Origin: Desulfobacterales bacterium | Lineage (GTDB): Bacteria; Desulfobacterota; Desulfobacteria; Desulfobacterales; Desulfosalsimonadaceae | Assembly (NCBI GenBank): GCA_034520365.1 | Contig: JAXHNP010000001.1 | Coordinates: 1-51,076, forward strand | DNA: 51,076 nucleotides | Reading direction: 5' to 3' | Shown: positions 27,957 through 36,152 of the stretch, piece by piece | Layout of the letters: each line of letters starts with the position of its first letter | Numbering within the stretch: position 1 is the stretch's first letter | Made by a program: the position numbers and the translations under genes | The notes under the pieces: model-generated | Database searches by the model: none | Seen by the model: only the letters and a program-made list of their open reading frames with translations | What the model was told of the DNA's origin: nothing

Positions 27957-28415
27957 ATGATCCGCAAGGCCAACATAGAGGATGTCAAGACCATTCATGC
28001 CATCCTCAAATATCGCGGCGAAAAGGGCGAGCTCCTCGCCCGGCCCCTGAGCCGCCTCTATGACCATGTGCGGGATTTCTGGGTCTATGTGGATGGGCAA
28101 ACCGATCGCATTGTCGGCTGTTGCGCCCTGCAGTTCTGCTGGGAGGATCTGGCGGAAATCCGCTCCCTGGCGGTGGATGACACGCGGCAAAACCAGGGCA
28201 TCGGCAATCAGCTCATAGAAACCGCCTTTGCCGAAGCCCGGCAGTTTAAAATCAAAAAGCTGTTTACCCTGACCTATAAGCCCGAATTTTTCAAAAAATT
28301 CGGGTTTGTGGTCATCGACCGCTCAGAGCTGCCCCTAAAAATCTGGGCGGACTGCATCCATTGCGTCAAATTTCCGGACTGTGATGAAATTGCGATGCTC
28401 AAAGAGCCGGTTTAA
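27957..28415 (+). CDS. GNAT N-acetyltransferase, short N-acetylglutamate synthase type
   Basis: 152 residues of a single GNAT domain. The acetyl-CoA loop is seen in IRSLAVDDTRQNQGIGNQLIE (Q/R-x-x-G-x-G type). The protein closely follows the short ArgA-like pattern known from Desulfobacterota: MIRKANIEDVKTIHAIL, FCWEDLAEIRSLAVD, KLFTLTYKPEFFKKFGF and the ending PLKIWADCIHCVKFPDCDE. Members of this group act as stand-alone N-acetylglutamate synthases starting arginine biosynthesis (glutamate plus acetyl-CoA), without the kinase-like domain. ATG at 27957 has no strong ribosome binding site and lies 43 bases after PBP1A. Its end overlaps the convergent gene by four bases. Confidence 0.8.
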   Translation: MIRKANIEDVKTIHAILKYRGEKGELLARPLSRLYDHVRDFWVYVDGQTDRIVGCCALQFCWEDLAEIRSLAVDDTRQNQGIGNQLIETAFAEARQFKIKKLFTLTYKPEFFKKFGFVVIDRSELPLKIWADCIHCVKFPDCDEIAMLKEPV

Positions 28416-29473
28416 GAATATATAAGGTTATAGTACAGCGGCGGATAAAACCAGTTATGGGGCCTGGGCAGAATCTGCTGGGAGCCCACGGTCAGCCAGT
28501 AGGACTCGAGCTTTATCTCCCGAAGCTTTCCGGTATCCGGCGGTATGGCATGGGAGGTATAGGAATAGGTCACCTGGAAAAGGAATACCCCGTTTTTGTC
28601 TTCGCTGGCGATCAAATAATTCTCTTTGAACTCCTTGATCGTCATTTGATTGGCCTCGGCTACCCGGCTCATCTCCTTCTGCGAAAGCTTGATCAGAACA
28701 ATTTTGGTGACCCCGCGGTCCGAATAGCGCAGCAGCGTCCGGGATTCGCTGCTTGAGACATAAACCGTGGAGATGCAGGGAATCCGCCGCAAAAATTGAG
28801 CGGCCACAATGGCGGCCGTACGCCGCCCCCCCACCATATCCGGCAGGCCGTAATATTCAAAAAACTTTTTCTGAATATCCTCGGCATGCTTCTCGCCCTT
28901 CTCATAGATATCCTTGGAAATATAGCGCAGGCGGCGGGCCATGTCTTCGGCCGCCTCGGTGATCGGCCAGTCGATGCGCACATGGAAATGCGAGAGCTGG
29001 TAGCGATGCTTTCCCCTGGGCTGGGCGGTATCCCGTTGAACAAGCAGCGCGTAATCCACGGGGAGCAGATCTTTTAAAAAATCAAAAAAATGAACGGATT
29101 CCAAAAACTTCTGGGTCCGGTCGAAATCATTTTTCAATGTCAGGGTCTTGGATCGGAGCAGGTTGGTTTTGGTCGTGCGGTTGGAATCAAAAAAACGGAT
29201 GTATTTTTTATGCTTGGCCGGAATGTGATCTTCAAGAAATATCAAAAGAAATGAATTCTGGCACTCATACTCGACCTTGGGAATCCGGGCCCGGGGTTTT
29301 AACTCTTTGCGCTCGACAAACGGATAATCCATTCCTTTGCGCTTGAAATTCTCATAGGATTCGGTCAGCGCATACTCTAATACAAATTGATCCAGTTCAT
29401 CGCGAAGCAGATTATAATAGGATCGCCGCAGGCGATCGGCTAAACTTAATTCCTCCCTGATACGCCAATGCAA
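28412..29473 (-). CDS. Uncharacterised 353-residue protein
   Basis: I do not recognise this family. The protein begins at TTG 29473 (GGGGG six bases upstream; no in-frame ATG nearby). It is basic and aromatic-rich, with no signal peptide or membrane helix. Recognisable patches include SFLLIFLEDHIPAKHKKYIRF, RYQLSHFHVRIDWPITEAAED, a helical stretch ARRLRYISKDIYEKGEKHAEDI and a glycine-rich turn LPDMVGGRRTAAIVAAQFLRR. The C-terminus is WFYPPLYYNLIYS. It stands alone on its strand, convergent with the acetyltransferase gene. Its codon use looks like that of its neighbours. A cytoplasmic nucleic-acid or protein-binding role is possible, but nothing proves it. Confidence 0.7.
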   Translation of the reverse strand: MHWRIREELSLADRLRRSYYNLLRDELDQFVLEYALTESYENFKRKGMDYPFVERKELKPRARIPKVEYECQNSFLLIFLEDHIPAKHKKYIRFFDSNRTTKTNLLRSKTLTLKNDFDRTQKFLESVHFFDFLKDLLPVDYALLVQRDTAQPRGKHRYQLSHFHVRIDWPITEAAEDMARRLRYISKDIYEKGEKHAEDIQKKFFEYYGLPDMVGGRRTAAIVAAQFLRRIPCISTVYVSSSESRTLLRYSDRGVTKIVLIKLSQKEMSRVAEANQMTIKEFKENYLIASEDKNGVFLFQVTYSYTSHAIPPDTGKLREIKLESYWLTVGSQQILPRPHNWFYPPLYYNLIYS

Positions 29474-30413: not shown

Positions 30414-31604
30414 TTATCCGGACACCGGATTTTCCAGCGCCGCCACACCCGGCAGGGGTTTTCCTTCCATCAGCTGCAGGAAAGCCCCGCCGCCGGTGGA
30501 GATATAGGTAAACCGGTCGCTCTGGCCGGTGGAATGAATGGCCACATCCGTATCCCCGCCGCCCACAATGGTCAGCGCATAGGAATTTGCGACATGGTGC
30601 ACCATGGAAACGGTGCCGCGGCTGAATGCATCGATTTCAAATATCCCCATGGGCCCGTTCCAGATAACGGTGCGCGCGTCATAGAGGACCTCCTCGAACA
30701 GCCGGGAAGTGGCCGGACCGATATCCAAAGCCATCCAGTCATCCGGAATTTCCTGGATGGGCACGATTTTAAATTCCGCCCGCTCATCGATTTCCGGGGC
30801 GACCACTGCATCCACCGGCAGATAGAACTTAATGCCCTGCTCAATGGCGGTTCTCATGATCCGGCCGGACTCCTCCACCAGATCGTCCTCGACCCTGGAT
30901 TTGCCGACACTGTAGCCCTTGCTCTTTAGAAAGGTATTGGCCATGGCGCCGCCGATGATAAACTTGTTGACCCGGCCCAGCATGTTCTTCAGGGCCCGGA
31001 TCTTGCTTGATACCTTGGCGCCGCCGATGATGGCCACCAGGGGCCGGCGCGGATTCTCCATAGCCTCGCGGAAATATTTGAGCTCATTTAACAGGAGAAA
31101 GCCGGCCGCTTTTTCCTCTACATACCGGGTAATGGCCGATACCGAGGCATGCTCGCGATGGCAGACCGCAAAAGCGTCATTTACATAGACATCGCAAAGA
31201 GATGCGAGTTCCCTGGCGAACTCATCGTCATTATCCTGCTCGCCCTTATGAAACCGGAGGTTTTCAAGCAAAAGGACCTCCCCGGGCTTTAACTCATCAG
31301 CCATCTGCCGGACCTCCGACCCCACGCAGTCAGGAGCCAGCTTGACATCCAGTTTGAGATAGCGGCCCAGCCGCTTGGCCACGGGCGCCAGGCTGTATTT
31401 GGGGTCCACCTTGCCCTTGGGGCGGTCCATGTGGGCGCATATAATCAGAATGCCGTCATGGTCCAGCACATACCTTAAGGTTGGCAGCACTTCACGAATC
31501 CGGGTATCATCGGTGATGTTCTGAAAATCATCCATGGGGACATTCACATCCACCCGTACCAATACCTTCTTGCCTGAAACCTCAATGTCCTTTACGGAAC
31601 GCAT
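30414..31604 (-). CDS. pgk: Phosphoglycerate kinase
   Basis: 396 residues from ATG at 31604 (GGAGG seven bases upstream; the frame is open 23 codons further without support). The family signature [15 protein letters not shown] is at the start. The 3-phosphoglycerate-binding residues are in [20 protein letters not shown], and [13 protein letters not shown]. The ADP/ATP loop is in the C-lobe ([11 protein letters not shown] and GGGDTDVA). It catalyses 1,3-bisphosphoglycerate plus ADP to 3-phosphoglycerate plus ATP in glycolysis or gluconeogenesis, in the cytoplasm. All key residues are present. It lies between the small Cys-rich gene and TVP38; gapA and tpi are not adjacent here. Confidence 0.96.
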
Positions 31605-31618
31605 CCTACCCCCTCCCT

Positions 31619-31894
31619 TTACTTGCGTTTTTTCTGTTTGCTTTTCTGGTGCAGGGCTTTTCTTTTGGACCATCGTTCAAGAAAACCAATGGTTCGGGAC
31701 TCATAGGCCCGGTCCACCCTTTCCGATTCAACTGCCGCCCCGGCCGGTTTTTCCATGGCCGCCTGAAGGCATTCGGTTTTAAATACACAGGCCATGCATA
31801 GGCGCGGAGAGTGGCGCAAGCCGTCCGCGCCTTTTGGAAACACGTTCTCAAGGTTTCCAAAACAATCCGGCCGATTTTCTTCCCTGTTACTCAT
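31619..31894 (-). CDS. Small Cys-rich protein with WhiB-like [4Fe-4S] spacing
   Basis: 91 residues from ATG at 31894, overlapping the radC end by eight bases. Four cysteines, C11, C33, C36 and C42, follow C-x21-C-x2-C-x5-C, the spacing that ligates the [4Fe-4S] cluster in WhiB-like proteins (C-x14-22-C-x2-C-x5-C). The local text [14 protein letters not shown] then [15 protein letters not shown] also resembles the FFP and CxxCxxxxxCL-xAL parts of that family. The C-terminus is basic ([18 protein letters not shown]), suiting nucleic acid or protein binding. The cluster and any regulatory role are inferred. WhiB proteins are otherwise known mainly from actinobacteria and their phages, so a convergent small protein is also possible. 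Confidence 0.75.
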
Positions 31895-32618
31895 TAATGC
31901 CCGTCCATTTGGCATTCTCTTTTTGAAATTCCCGGCACATCTGCTGGATATGCCCGGTGTCCGCAAAACTGAAATACGTGTAATCGCCGATCACCAGATG
32001 CTCATGGACCGTAATCCCCATTGTCAGGCACGCAAAAATAAGCTGCCGGGTCACCGAAAAATCGGCCGGCGAGGGTTTCGGATCACCGGAAGGATGGTTA
32101 TGGGCAAATATTACGGCCGCCGCCTGATGCGCCAGCGCGCTTTTAACCACTTCGCGGGGATAAACCGAACTCGCCGTTAGTGTGCCCTCAAACAGCGCCT
32201 CAGAGCCCAGCACCCGGTTTTTGGCATCCAGGTACAGCACCCTGAAACATTCCCGGTCCTTTGCGCCCATGTTGTGGTATAAGTAATCAAAAAGCGCCTG
32301 GGAATTGGTCAGCGGATCCTCCCGGATCACCTTTTTTTCCAGATACCGATCCCATACCGCCTTGACCAGCTTGATACCGAAAGCATTTTTGGGGCCGATC
32401 CCCGGGACTTCACGCAGTTGTGCGTCACTGGCTTCAAAAACCCCCTGCAGGGTTTTAAACTTTTTAAGGGCGGCCTTGGCCATGTCCTTGCAGTCTTTCC
32501 GGGGTGTGCCAAGGGTCAGCAGGAGTTCAATCACTTCATAATCATGAAACCCGTCCAGTCCGGCGGTTAAGAACCGCTCCCGCAGCCGCTGTCGATGCCC
32601 CTCGCCTTTGTGTGCCAA
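31887..32618 (-). CDS. radC: RadC family JAMM-domain protein
   Basis: 243 residues. An N-terminal helix-hairpin-helix (REVPGIGPKNAFGIKLV, about 67-83) leads to a JAMM metalloprotease-like domain with HNHPSGDPKPSPADF, the zinc-binding H-x-H-x10-D set. A strong family match is also seen at GHRQRLRERFLTAGLDGFHDYEVIELLL. RadC was named for DNA repair, but its function remains unclear. Start is TTG at 32618; there is no ATG or GTG near the family start and no strong ribosome binding site. It lies after gpsA by 72 bases and overlaps the Cys-rich gene, so they are probably translated together. Confidence 0.93.
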   Translation of the reverse strand: MAHKGEGHRQRLRERFLTAGLDGFHDYEVIELLLTLGTPRKDCKDMAKAALKKFKTLQGVFEASDAQLREVPGIGPKNAFGIKLVKAVWDRYLEKKVIREDPLTNSQALFDYLYHNMGAKDRECFRVLYLDAKNRVLGSEALFEGTLTASSVYPREVVKSALAHQAAAVIFAHNHPSGDPKPSPADFSVTRQLIFACLTMGITVHEHLVIGDYTYFSFADTGHIQQMCREFQKENAKWTGINE

Positions 32619-32690: not shown

Positions 32691-33716
32691 CTATCGGACA
32701 TCCAGCATTTCATCCTTCAAATCACGGGTCATTAACTGGTAGAGGCCGTCTGCAGGGGAGAGGTGCTCATACAGGACGGCGTAAACGGAATGGGAAATCG
32801 GCATATCCACCCCGAGCTTGCGGGACAGGTTATATACCGATTTGGAGGTTTTCACGCCTTCGGCCACCATATTCATTTCAGCCAGGATTTCATCCAGGGA
32901 TTTGCCCTCCCCGATTTTCTGCCCCACCGTGTGGTTGCGGCTCAGGCTGCCGGTGCAGGTGAGCAGAAGGTCCCCGATGCCGGCAAGCCCGGCAAATGTA
33001 TGGGGATTGGCGCCGAGCTTGATTCCCAGCCGCCGGATTTCGGCAAGCCCCCGGGTGATTAGGGCCGCGCGGGTATTCAGGCCAAGGCCCAGGCCGTCCA
33101 CAATTCCGGATGCAATGGCGATCACATTCTTCACCGCACCGCCTAACTCCACGCCGATCAGGTCATCATTGGTATAGACCCGGAAATACGGAGTGGAAAA
33201 AAGATTCTGAATATAGGCGGCAGCCGAGTGCTCCACTGAGGCCGCCGTCACCACTGTAGGCATTTTTTGGGCCACTTCGGCGGCAAAACTCGGCCCGGAA
33301 AGGACGGATATGCGGGGGGCCAATGCCTCAGGGAGGGTCTCTTTCAAGACCCCGCTCATGGTCAGATGCGTTTTGTTTTCGATGCCTTTGGAGGCGGTGA
33401 CGACATAGGCGGCCGGATCGATATGGGCGGCCGCCTGGCCTGAGACCTCGCGCATCAAATGGGAGGGCACCACAAATACAATGACTTGTTTGCCGGAAAC
33501 CACGGCCGCCAGATCATTTGACGGGGTAATGGCCTCAGGCAGCGAAATACCGGGCAAAAACATCTGATTTTCCCGGCTCTTTTCGATGCTTTGCTTAACC
33601 GCCGGCTCATAGGCCCACAAATTCACCGGATACCCTTTGCCCCCCAGCAGATGGGCAAGCGCGGTGCCCCAGCTGCCTGCCCCTACAACTCCGATTCGCG
33701 TGGTTTCCGCATCCAT
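32691..33716 (-). CDS. gpsA: Glycerol-3-phosphate dehydrogenase [NAD(P)+]
   Basis: 341 residues with the N-terminal dinucleotide loop GVVGAGSWGTALAHLL (about 9-24). The family segments VVTASKGIENKTHL, SVLSGPSFAAEVA, GVELGGAVKNVIAIASGI (catalytic lysine region), HTFAGLAGIGDLLLTCTGSLSRN and MVAEGVKTSKSVY are all present. It reduces dihydroxyacetone phosphate to sn-glycerol 3-phosphate for phospholipid synthesis, in the cytoplasm. The start lies three bases after the gyrA stop, so the two are translationally coupled. All expected residues are intact. Confidence 0.96.
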   Translation of the reverse strand: MDAETTRIGVVGAGSWGTALAHLLGGKGYPVNLWAYEPAVKQSIEKSRENQMFLPGISLPEAITPSNDLAAVVSGKQVIVFVVPSHLMREVSGQAAAHIDPAAYVVTASKGIENKTHLTMSGVLKETLPEALAPRISVLSGPSFAAEVAQKMPTVVTAASVEHSAAAYIQNLFSTPYFRVYTNDDLIGVELGGAVKNVIAIASGIVDGLGLGLNTRAALITRGLAEIRRLGIKLGANPHTFAGLAGIGDLLLTCTGSLSRNHTVGQKIGEGKSLDEILAEMNMVAEGVKTSKSVYNLSRKLGVDMPISHSVYAVLYEHLSPADGLYQLMTRDLKDEMLDVR

Positions 33717-33719
33717 TAT

Positions 33720-36152
33720 TTACTCTTCTTCGTCTTCGCTTTCAGCCAGCCGCGCCGCGCCGACCAGCCGCTCGTTGGGCTCCATGCCCATCAGTTTCAC
33801 GCCCTGAGTGTTCCGGCTGATCACGGATATCCCCTTGATCGGCATGCGGATGATCTTTCCGATATCGGTCATGAGCATCACCTCATCCTCATCACCTACC
33901 ACCAGGATGGTGACCACTTTGCCGTTACGCTCATTGGTCTTGATGGTGATCACCCCTTTACCGCCCCGGCGCTGGACCGGATATTCATCCAGCAGGGTAC
34001 GTTTGCCGTACCCGTTTTCTGTTGCTGTAAAAAGCGTCTGGCCATGGGTCAGCACCTCCATGCCGACCAATTGATCGCCTTCCACCAGGCTCATGCCCCT
34101 AACGCCCCGGGCTATCCGGCCCGTGGGCCGTACATCCGACTCATGGAAGCGAATGGACTTTCCGAAAAGCGAGCACAGAAAAACATTTCGGGTGCCGTCG
34201 GTCATGCGGATGGCGATCAGCTCATCGCCCGCTGCCAAATTGATGGCAAGTTTGCCGCCGGATCGCGGGCGGGAGAATTCCATGATATCGGTCTTTTTAA
34301 TCATGCCCTGCCGGGTGGCCATCATCACATGATAGCCGGGCTCATATTCGGGCACGGCCAGCACAGTGGTCAGTTTTTCGTCCGGCTTGAAGTTCAGGAG
34401 GTTGACCACCGCCTTGCCCCGGCTGGTGCGGCCGCTCTGAGGGATATCATAGACCTTGCACCAGTAGACCCGGCCCTGATTGGTGAAAAACATAAAAGTA
34501 TGGTGCGTGGAGGCCACGAACAGGTGGGCGACAAAATCCTCATCCTTTACCCCCATGCCGGTCTTGCCTTTTCCGCCTCTGCGCTGCTGGCGGTACAGGG
34601 TAATCGGATTTCGTTTGATGTAGCCGCTGTTGGTGATGGTGACCACCATGTCCTCTTCGGCGATCATGTCCTCAAGCGTAATCTCCCGGGTTTCGGAAAC
34701 GATTTTGGTGCGGCGCTCATCTCCGAAGGCATCCTGGATTTCGGTTAACTCATCTTTAATCAGGTTTAGGATAATGCGCTCACTGGAGAGGATTTCCTTG
34801 AAACGGGCGATGTCTTTTAATACATCCGCGTGCTCCTGCTTGATCTTGTCGCGCTCAAGGCCGGTCAGCCGCTGCAGGCGCATATCCAGTATGGCCTGGG
34901 CCTGGACATCGGTCAGTTCAAAGCGCGTCATCAACTGGGTTTTAGCTTCACCCGGCGAGGCCGACTTCCGGATCAGGGAGACCACCTCATCCAGGTTGTC
35001 AAGGGCGATGATCAGACCCTCCAGCACATGGGCCCGGGCCTCTGCCTTGGCCAGGTCATGGCGGGTGCGGCGGATTATGATTTCCTTTCGGTGCACAATG
35101 AAATACTCGAGGATCTCTTTCAGGTTGAGCATTTCCGGCCGCTTGTTCACCACCGCCAGCAGGATGATGCCGAAATTGCTCTCCAGCGGGGTATGCTTAT
35201 AGAGCTGGTTTAGCACCACTTCCGCGATCTGCTCGCGCTTTAGCCCCACCGCCACCCGGATGCCGTCCTTGTCGGATTCATCCCGGACGTATCGGATCCC
35301 TTCCAGGTGCTTGTTCTTGACCAGGTCGGCGATTTTTTCAATCAGACTGGCCTTGTTTACCTGATAGGGAATTTCCCGGATGACAAGGGTTTCGGCCTTG
35401 GTCTTTTTATCCGTTTCAATCTCGATGCGCCCGCGTATCCGTATTTTGCCCCGGCCCGTGGTATAGGCGTTATAAATCCCCTGCGTGCCGTAAATGATCC
35501 CGCCGGTGGGAAAATCCGGCCCGGGGAGATATTGGATCAGCTCCTCGCAGGTCAGCTCGGGCGAATCGATCAGGGCCTTGATGGCCTCGGAGAGCTCATT
35601 TAAGTTATGGGGCGGGATATTGGTAGCCATGCCCACCGCGATGCCCGAGGAGCCGTTTAAAAGGAGCGAGGGGATTTTTGCCGGCAGGACCTGGGGCTCT
35701 TCCAGGGTTTCATCGTAGTTTAACTGGTGATCGACCGTCTCCTTGTCAATATCCTCCAGCATCTGATGGGCCAGGCGCATCATCCGGACTTCGGTGTAGC
35801 GCATGGCCGCCGGGGGGTCGCCGTCAATCGAGCCGAAATTGCCCTGGCCGTCCACCATGGGGTAGCGCAGGGTGAAACTCTGCGCCATCCGGACCAGCGC
35901 ATCATAGACCGCGGAATCGCCGTGCGGATGATATTTACCGATGACATCACCGACGATACGCGCCGACTTTTTATAGGGCTTGTTCCAGTCGTTTTTCAAT
36001 TCGCGCATGGCGAACAGAATTCGCCGATGCACGGGTTTTAAACCGTCCCGTACGTCCGGAAGCGCTCGGCCGATGATGACACTCATGGCGTAGTCCAGAT
36101 AGGACTGCTTCATCTCCCGTTCGAGACTGATTTCGGGCAGGTTGGAATCCAT
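33720..36152 (-). CDS. gyrA: DNA gyrase subunit A
   Basis: 810 residues. The catalytic tyrosine is Y119 in [10 protein letters not shown]. The quinolone region reads [19 protein letters not shown] with S80 and D84, the susceptible type. The GyrA box QRRGGKG that marks gyrase instead of topoisomerase IV appears in the C-terminal domain ([16 protein letters not shown]), and a second, [11 protein letters not shown], follows later. Works with GyrB to add negative supercoils; gyrB is not in this window. It is the head of the gyrA-gpsA-radC-Cys-pgk-TVP38 run. The C-terminal tail is acidic (AESEDEEE). No unusual feature. Confidence 0.97.

Follow-up and report, generated by a model that had tools for sequence, protein, structure and literature searches.

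A conserved family of small four-cysteine proteins with a WhiB-like core in Desulfobacterota

The 91-aa product of a small gene located between radC and pgk in a Desulfobacterales genome belongs to a real and conserved family of four-cysteine proteins. Judging from the sequences, the family carries a Cys4 core of the WhiB type although it lies outside the Actinobacteria, and this core is very probably a remote homolog of that of WhiB. The gene (hereafter the wbl-like gene) lies in a contig stretch of 51,076 nucleotides, which is referred to as the window, and its product as the window protein. The best explanation, to which a probability of roughly 0.45 is given, is that the family is a diverged, non-actinobacterial sister of the Wbl domain, inherited within Desulfobacterota and serving RNA polymerase as a redox-responsive accessory. 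The literature confines the Wbl (WhiB-like) proteins, which are iron-sulfur gene regulators, to one group of bacteria: they are "exclusively found in Actinobacteria" according to PMC8612146 and "present only in the actinomycetes" according to PMC7363131. Among the matches listed from the open-licence literature, searched by title and abstract, there was no precedent for the four-cysteine family, and some of its members may already bear a Wbl-domain label in UniProt or InterPro.

The initial annotation of this locus had been drawn to a WhiB-like cysteine signature, and that observation holds. The spacing C11-x21-C33-x2-C36-x5-C42 is exact in the ORF, which is on the minus strand (a strand that the initial annotation did not give), the plus strand of 31619-31894 having a stop within the interval. 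The segments NVFPKG (residues 17-22), CMAC (33-36), and ECLQAAM (41-47) are all present. The neighboring genes named there, radC (PF04002, E 2e-43) and pgk (PF00162, E 2e-152), were confirmed with Pfam (table 1). The stop codon of radC at 31887-31889 produces the overlap with the wbl-like gene, and the start of pgk at 31604 is preceded by GGGAGGGGG. The longest ORF of pgk begins at an upstream in-frame ATG at 31673, inside the wbl-like gene, with 31604 as the likely true start.

Table 1. Features of the wbl-like gene and its neighborhood (positions of the window)
Feature	Position	Strand	Remarks
wbl-like gene, 91 aa	31619..31894	-	ATG at 31894, TAA at 31621..31619
Cys11 codon, first invariant Cys	31862..31864	-	78/78 in the 78-row alignment
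V18-F19-P20, opposite WhiB FFP	31835..31843	-	V 77/78, F 72/78, P 76/78
C33-x2-C36-x5-C42	31769..31798	-	Each Cys 78/78; aligned with WhiB Cys2-4
Gly52, opposite GG of WhiB G[I/V]WGG after a 6-residue gap	31739..31741	-	67/78; without Trp
R74-W75-x3-K79, family hallmark	31658..31675	-	78/78; within the last predicted helix
Basic C-terminal segment, residues 67-91	31622..31696	-	Net +10
radC	31887..32618	-	Upstream, same strand; 8-base overlap with the wbl-like gene
pgk	30414..31604	-	14 bases downstream; own Shine-Dalgarno-like sequence
gpsA	32691..33716	-	Upstream neighbor (Pfam)
gyrA	33720..36152	-	Upstream neighbor (Pfam)

A gene for a VTT-domain protein (Pfam) is also found downstream of the wbl-like gene. 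The genes gyrA, gpsA, radC, the wbl-like gene, pgk, and the VTT gene share one strand, which suggests that they form a single operon. The scans for promoters (5 found against a shuffled mean of 4.0) and terminators (8 against 6.0) showed nothing clearly beyond expectation. A 353-aa ORF near the operon (28412-29473, minus strand) had no Pfam match at E<=1e-5 and may not be a gene.

The wbl-like gene is near-universal and mostly single-copy among the relatives searched. With the window protein as query (E<=0.01), a match was present in 55 of 60 genomes, namely its own and 59 relatives; G023, G024, G027, G046, and G056 were without one, and four of these are <90% complete. Across 296 genomes drawn evenly from the phylum, 50 matched at the same threshold, four of these matches lying at E 0.001-0.01 and two of these four containing stops. 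The start codons of the homologs were picked by script. A profile of 30 rows, built from 30 of the loci, matched 83 of 394 genomes of the phylum at E<=0.001, including weak matches in G351, G180, and G074 (E 2e-5 to 7e-4). The weak match in G074 (L112) was judged spurious. Among the genomes listed in this search, all 24 of the same family and order were matched; this is less than a full count, as 291 unmatched genomes stand outside that list. When the genome contigs were scanned with short peptide patterns from the window protein, six in number and reaching close relatives only, three loci were located, all of Desulfobacterales. The protein of one of these loci (L031) is identical to that of a genome of the same genus (L002).

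In the alignment of 78 homologs, the residues C11, C33, C36, C42, R74, W75, and K79 are invariant. Besides the V18-F19-P20 stretch (table 1), the conserved positions other than cysteines include L43 (77/78) and A46 (76/78). The cysteine spacing 21/2/5 is kept in 75 of the 78 members, with 21/3/5 in two and 24/2/5 in one, and identity to the window protein falls as low as 26%; therefore, the pattern is beyond chance.

Three unusual proteins, encoded at L098, L110, and L111, are omitted from this alignment. The first of them (L113:1752-2189, equal to L098:1330-1767) carries two tandem Cys4 cores followed by a single R-W-x3-K tail, which suggests that the core is separable as a module. The other two (L110:1493-2167, minus strand, 225 aa; L111:1397-2119, minus strand, 241 aa) are long and weak members with a core-like Cys4 N terminus. 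Their C-terminal part had no confident Pfam match, and Whib was not matched either.

The relationship to WhiB was examined at the level of profiles, and here the Pfam check proposed in the initial annotation gave a divided answer. The window protein itself scored 16.6 bits (E 0.012) with Whib (PF02467), below the gathering cut-off of 23.6, and had no NCBIfam match. On the other hand, 34 of the 78 members matched Whib at E<=0.1, with a best E of 9e-6, and no other Pfam family was matched by more than four of 78; among the 30 members of the smaller set, 13 matched Whib at E<=10. All six PDB sequences found with the 78-row profile at E<=10 are WhiB, WhiB7, or WhiB1 (E 1.3e-5 to 0.42, four of them <0.001), and WhiBs were the top six of eight PDB hits of the 30-row profile.

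In the opposite direction, the Whib model matched in seven of the 296 genomes of the phylum at E<=0.01. Two of the seven places are members of the four-cysteine family (L062, equal to L047, and L063, equal to L059), and the other five showed no match to the window protein. A single genome of the 296 exceeded the Whib cut-off (26.2 bits), and this place is inside the family gene at L062. Within 14 control genomes, only Corynebacterium glutamicum matched the model.

Alignment of the family with 12 WhiBs, drawn from actinobacterial plasmids and phages, gave hhalign probabilities of 90.4 (30 rows), 91.1 (78 rows), and, with 61 rows, 84.3 untrimmed and 93.2 trimmed. The score was 36-40 over 36-43 columns, varying with rows and trimming, and Cx2Cx5CL was aligned. 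The aligned columns other than cysteines comprise FP, the L after Cys4, and the A four residues after Cys4, and the distance from the proline to Cys2 is 13 in the family, the same as in the WhiB row shown. For the shuffle controls, the trimmed 61-row alignment was used rather than the 78-row one, with a real score of 39.9. When the WhiB columns were shuffled with the cysteines fixed, none of 300 shuffles reached this score (maximum 31.9, one of them at probability 81), and the same was found for the core alone (0/300, maximum 32.4). The reversed WhiB scored 14.1 and 100 full shuffles 17.3 at most with the 61-row alignment. After masking of all cysteines, the score was 20.9 with a probability of 13, against 19.5 for the best of 300 shuffles. 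The similarity to WhiB outside the cysteines thus exists, as far as these alignments go, but is modest. The real score, which beats the Cys-fixed shuffles, and this modest similarity at the other positions are read here as remote homology of the core, which is held very probable.

The initial annotation had left two possibilities, a distant relative of WhiB or a convergent iron-sulfur protein. In the second case, a small Zn- or Fe-S-binding protein would have reached Cx21Cx2Cx5C independently of WhiB. The triad Cx2Cx5C occurs also in Cas4/AddB-type nucleases and in SPASM domains, that is, in unrelated Fe-S proteins. These have the spacing of three of the four cysteines in common with the family, whereas the family has no fusion to a nuclease or a radical-SAM enzyme, and Cas4 appeared among the library hits as one weak match (phrog_1990, E 0.055, 1/30 members). 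Convergence would also agree with the weak Cys-masked profile match, the Cys-fixed shuffle at probability 81, and the fold-search rows shown, in which no WhiB is named. On the contrary, Whib is the sole recurrent Pfam hit and WhiB the sole PDB hit of the 78-row profile, positions other than the cysteines align, and no Cys-fixed shuffle attains the real score. Convergence is considered improbable, and the sequence evidence favors the distant relative, since WhiBs are the only PDB hits, Whib is the only recurrent Pfam family, and the Cys-fixed shuffles are outscored.

The fold searches were less favorable. AlphaFold predicted helices only (15-18, 31-34, 39-48, 50-65, and 71-90) in two models built without cluster, with a mean pLDDT of 82 and 80, and in both of them the long helix 71-90 bears the invariant R74, W75, and K79. 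When the PDB was searched by Foldseek, the two models had 20 and 11 matches at E<=10; no WhiB was among them, and no match reached E<=0.001. The 20 entries listed from VIA-align on 38 Foldseek-chosen chains include no WhiB. Against viral models, there were 124 matches at E<=10 and none at E<=0.001; no WhiB is named in the best 50 of the 124, several of which are unnamed. A small protein makes a poor query when its cluster is left out of the model, and the searches had no WhiB model as a positive control, so that the lack of WhiB in the rows shown counts mildly against homology, as judged from the models. Of the two comparisons with WhiB proposed in the initial annotation, that of the profiles shows similarity, and that of the predicted structures lists no WhiB in the rows shown.

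A comparison with the published definition of the Wbl proteins shows both agreement and departure. According to the respective passages of the literature, these proteins have about 80-140 residues and four cysteines in the arrangement CxnCx2Cx5C (PMC7363131), a G[I/V]W[G/A]G turn (PMC10245118, PMC7363131), and a C-terminal block of basic residues (PMC3905903). The window protein has exactly this arrangement, and all 78 rows have the four cysteines, 75 of them with the spacing 21/2/5. The tail, which the initial annotation had rightly called basic, contains 11 K/R and one D/E in residues 67-91. The G[I/V]W[G/A]G turn is absent from the window protein, in which Gly52 alone stands opposite the GG (table 1). 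A tryptophan at position 69 is found in three of the 78 rows, within GVWDRL and without GG.

The family and the Wbl proteins (PF02467; WhiB, WhiB1, WhiB3/WhiD, and WhiB7/WblC) share the arrangement CxnCx2Cx5C, with an aromatic-Pro motif at a distance of 13 residues in front of Cys2 and with CL..A following Cys4, and they agree in their small size, helical model, and basic C terminus. In contrast to the Wbl proteins, the family has a Cys1-Cys2 distance one residue shorter than the consensus of the 12 WhiBs, lacks the G[I/V]WGG turn, and has an extra helix with the invariant R-W-x3-K; the window protein scores under the cut-off of Pfam, and its host is not an actinobacterium, with the gene placed in a chromosomal neighborhood of housekeeping genes. 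Because G[I/V]WGG is absent, the score is below the cut-off, and no WhiB is among the fold-search rows shown, the family is not, on this sequence comparison, a canonical Wbl protein by the published definition.

The core motif is also common to actinophage WhiBs: at E<=10, 11 of 30 members match phrog_14459, with a best E of 5e-5, and six of 30 match phrog_472, with a best E of 3.5e-4. In contrast to them, the family has no phage-borne copy in the phage records and viral contigs searched. An unannotated phage protein family, phrog_1333, was matched by five of the 30 members (best E 1e-4).

Since Wbl genes are present on actinobacterial plasmids and phages, the gene could have been gained recently by transfer from an actinobacterium or an actinophage. 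In one case reported in the literature, a viral whiB that is linked to an acidobacterial host groups with actinobacterial versions (PMC6172770). In the core-only tree (60 columns, 78 members, 12 WhiBs), the family and the WhiBs form the two sides of one branch with a support of 100/100 and a length of 4.5 changes per column, in a tree whose bootstrap is not settled and whose inner order is unreliable with 60 columns. The window protein had no match at E<=0.1 in 72,556 plasmid records or in 50,697 phage records. In viral contigs, 34 stretches fitted a pattern derived from a 7-row alignment and none was confirmed. The separation of the family in the core tree, the conserved synteny, and the lack of a plasmid, phage, or confirmed viral copy in these searches speak for a descent that is old and vertical and against a capture in recent times. 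Recent transfer from actinobacteria is thus highly improbable and was set aside on the core tree, within its 60 columns and 12 sampled WhiBs.

The genomic contexts of the family were compared in 81 distinct loci. The radC gene is found within 300 bases upstream in 44 of them and pgk within 210 bases downstream in 43, with both in 38 and either in 49. In 19 loci (L044, L047-L058, L060, L061, L100, L101, L104, and L121), a gene for a protein with a zinc ribbon and a Yip1 domain follows the wbl-like gene; 12 of these have a histidine phosphatase gene upstream on the opposite strand, and nine a UvrD-type helicase gene downstream. In six loci of a divergent subgroup (L114-L119), the wbl-like gene is placed directly after khpA, a gene for a KH-domain RNA-binding protein (PF13083, E 1e-23 in the one example checked), and these members have C, A, or M where the others mostly have the F of VFP. 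Seven loci show none of these contexts. The Yip1/zinc-ribbon, His_Phos_1, and KH_KhpA-B assignments were each checked with Pfam on one example, and UvrD was named by eye from the sequence. The neighbors radC, pgk, khpA, and the Yip1/zinc-ribbon gene do not suggest redox regulation, and this counts against the best explanation.

The contexts bear equally on the main rival of the redox-sensitive accessory of RNA polymerase, namely an RNA- or ribosome-associated Fe-S protein. Here a Wbl-derived Fe-S core would have been recruited to RNA or the ribosome as a housekeeping RNA-binding or translation factor, the R-W-x3-K helix binding RNA and the cluster having a structural or redox role. The position directly after khpA in six of the 81 loci is in line with it, as is the strongly basic tail, and a near-universal, mostly single-copy gene resembles a housekeeping factor more than a niche regulator. 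On the other hand, the contexts with radC or pgk (49/81) and with Yip1/zinc-ribbon (19/81) do not point to RNA, and the characterized relatives of the core are, as far as is known, transcription regulators. An RNA or ribosome role seems unlikely, and the accessory of RNA polymerase is the reading backed here.

According to this preferred reading, the gene product would be a sister of the Wbl cluster domain that has diverged deeply and has been passed down within Desulfobacterota. Its four cysteines would hold an O2/NO-labile [4Fe-4S] cluster, and the binding of such a cluster is held probable. The core would dock on its partner as WhiB does, most likely on region 4 of the primary sigma factor RpoD, and the basic C-terminal helix would contact nucleic acid near the promoter; in this way, the protein may be an accessory of RNA polymerase that responds to redox conditions. 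That the partner is RNA polymerase or a sigma factor is a tentative proposal from the sequences, somewhat short of even odds.

The RpoD of the genome (L123) has LRKLRHPTRS near its end, the R-H pair of which we take to be R515/H516 of SigA. RHP occurs in other primary sigma factors too and is not specific. In published accounts, SigA R515/H516 matter for Wbl binding (PMC3905903, PMC10245118). In one of them, the aromatic pair (FF) before the proline contacts sigma4, and WhiB3 no longer binds sigma in pull-downs after the substitution F31A, F32A, or W76A, at positions that correspond to F17, F18, and W60 in WhiB1 (PMC10245118). At the site of the FF, most members of the family have V-F (F in 72/78). 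Should sigma be the partner, the mode of docking would have to be other than that of WhiB, both because the tryptophan turn is missing and because the khpA-linked members have no F at the sigma-contact site of WhiB3. W75 or another surface would then have to substitute for the missing tryptophan turn.

A bolder version of the preferred reading, which we hold rather doubtful, is that of an ancient Wbl branch of Desulfobacterota which split before the actinobacterial diversification, in which the R-W-x3-K helix replaces G[I/V]WGG for docking and the protein switches the RpoD holoenzyme in strict anaerobes according to redox state or NO. If this were true, the control of a primary sigma factor by Wbl proteins would be older and wider than the Actinobacteria. 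The origin of the Wbl regulator class would shift with a family of this kind, which is conserved in one order of Desulfobacterota and in several of its other families. Comparing this family with the Wbl proteins would help to tell their cluster-binding parts from their sigma-docking parts, and it offers a small, mostly single-copy, and testable target in anaerobic bacteria.
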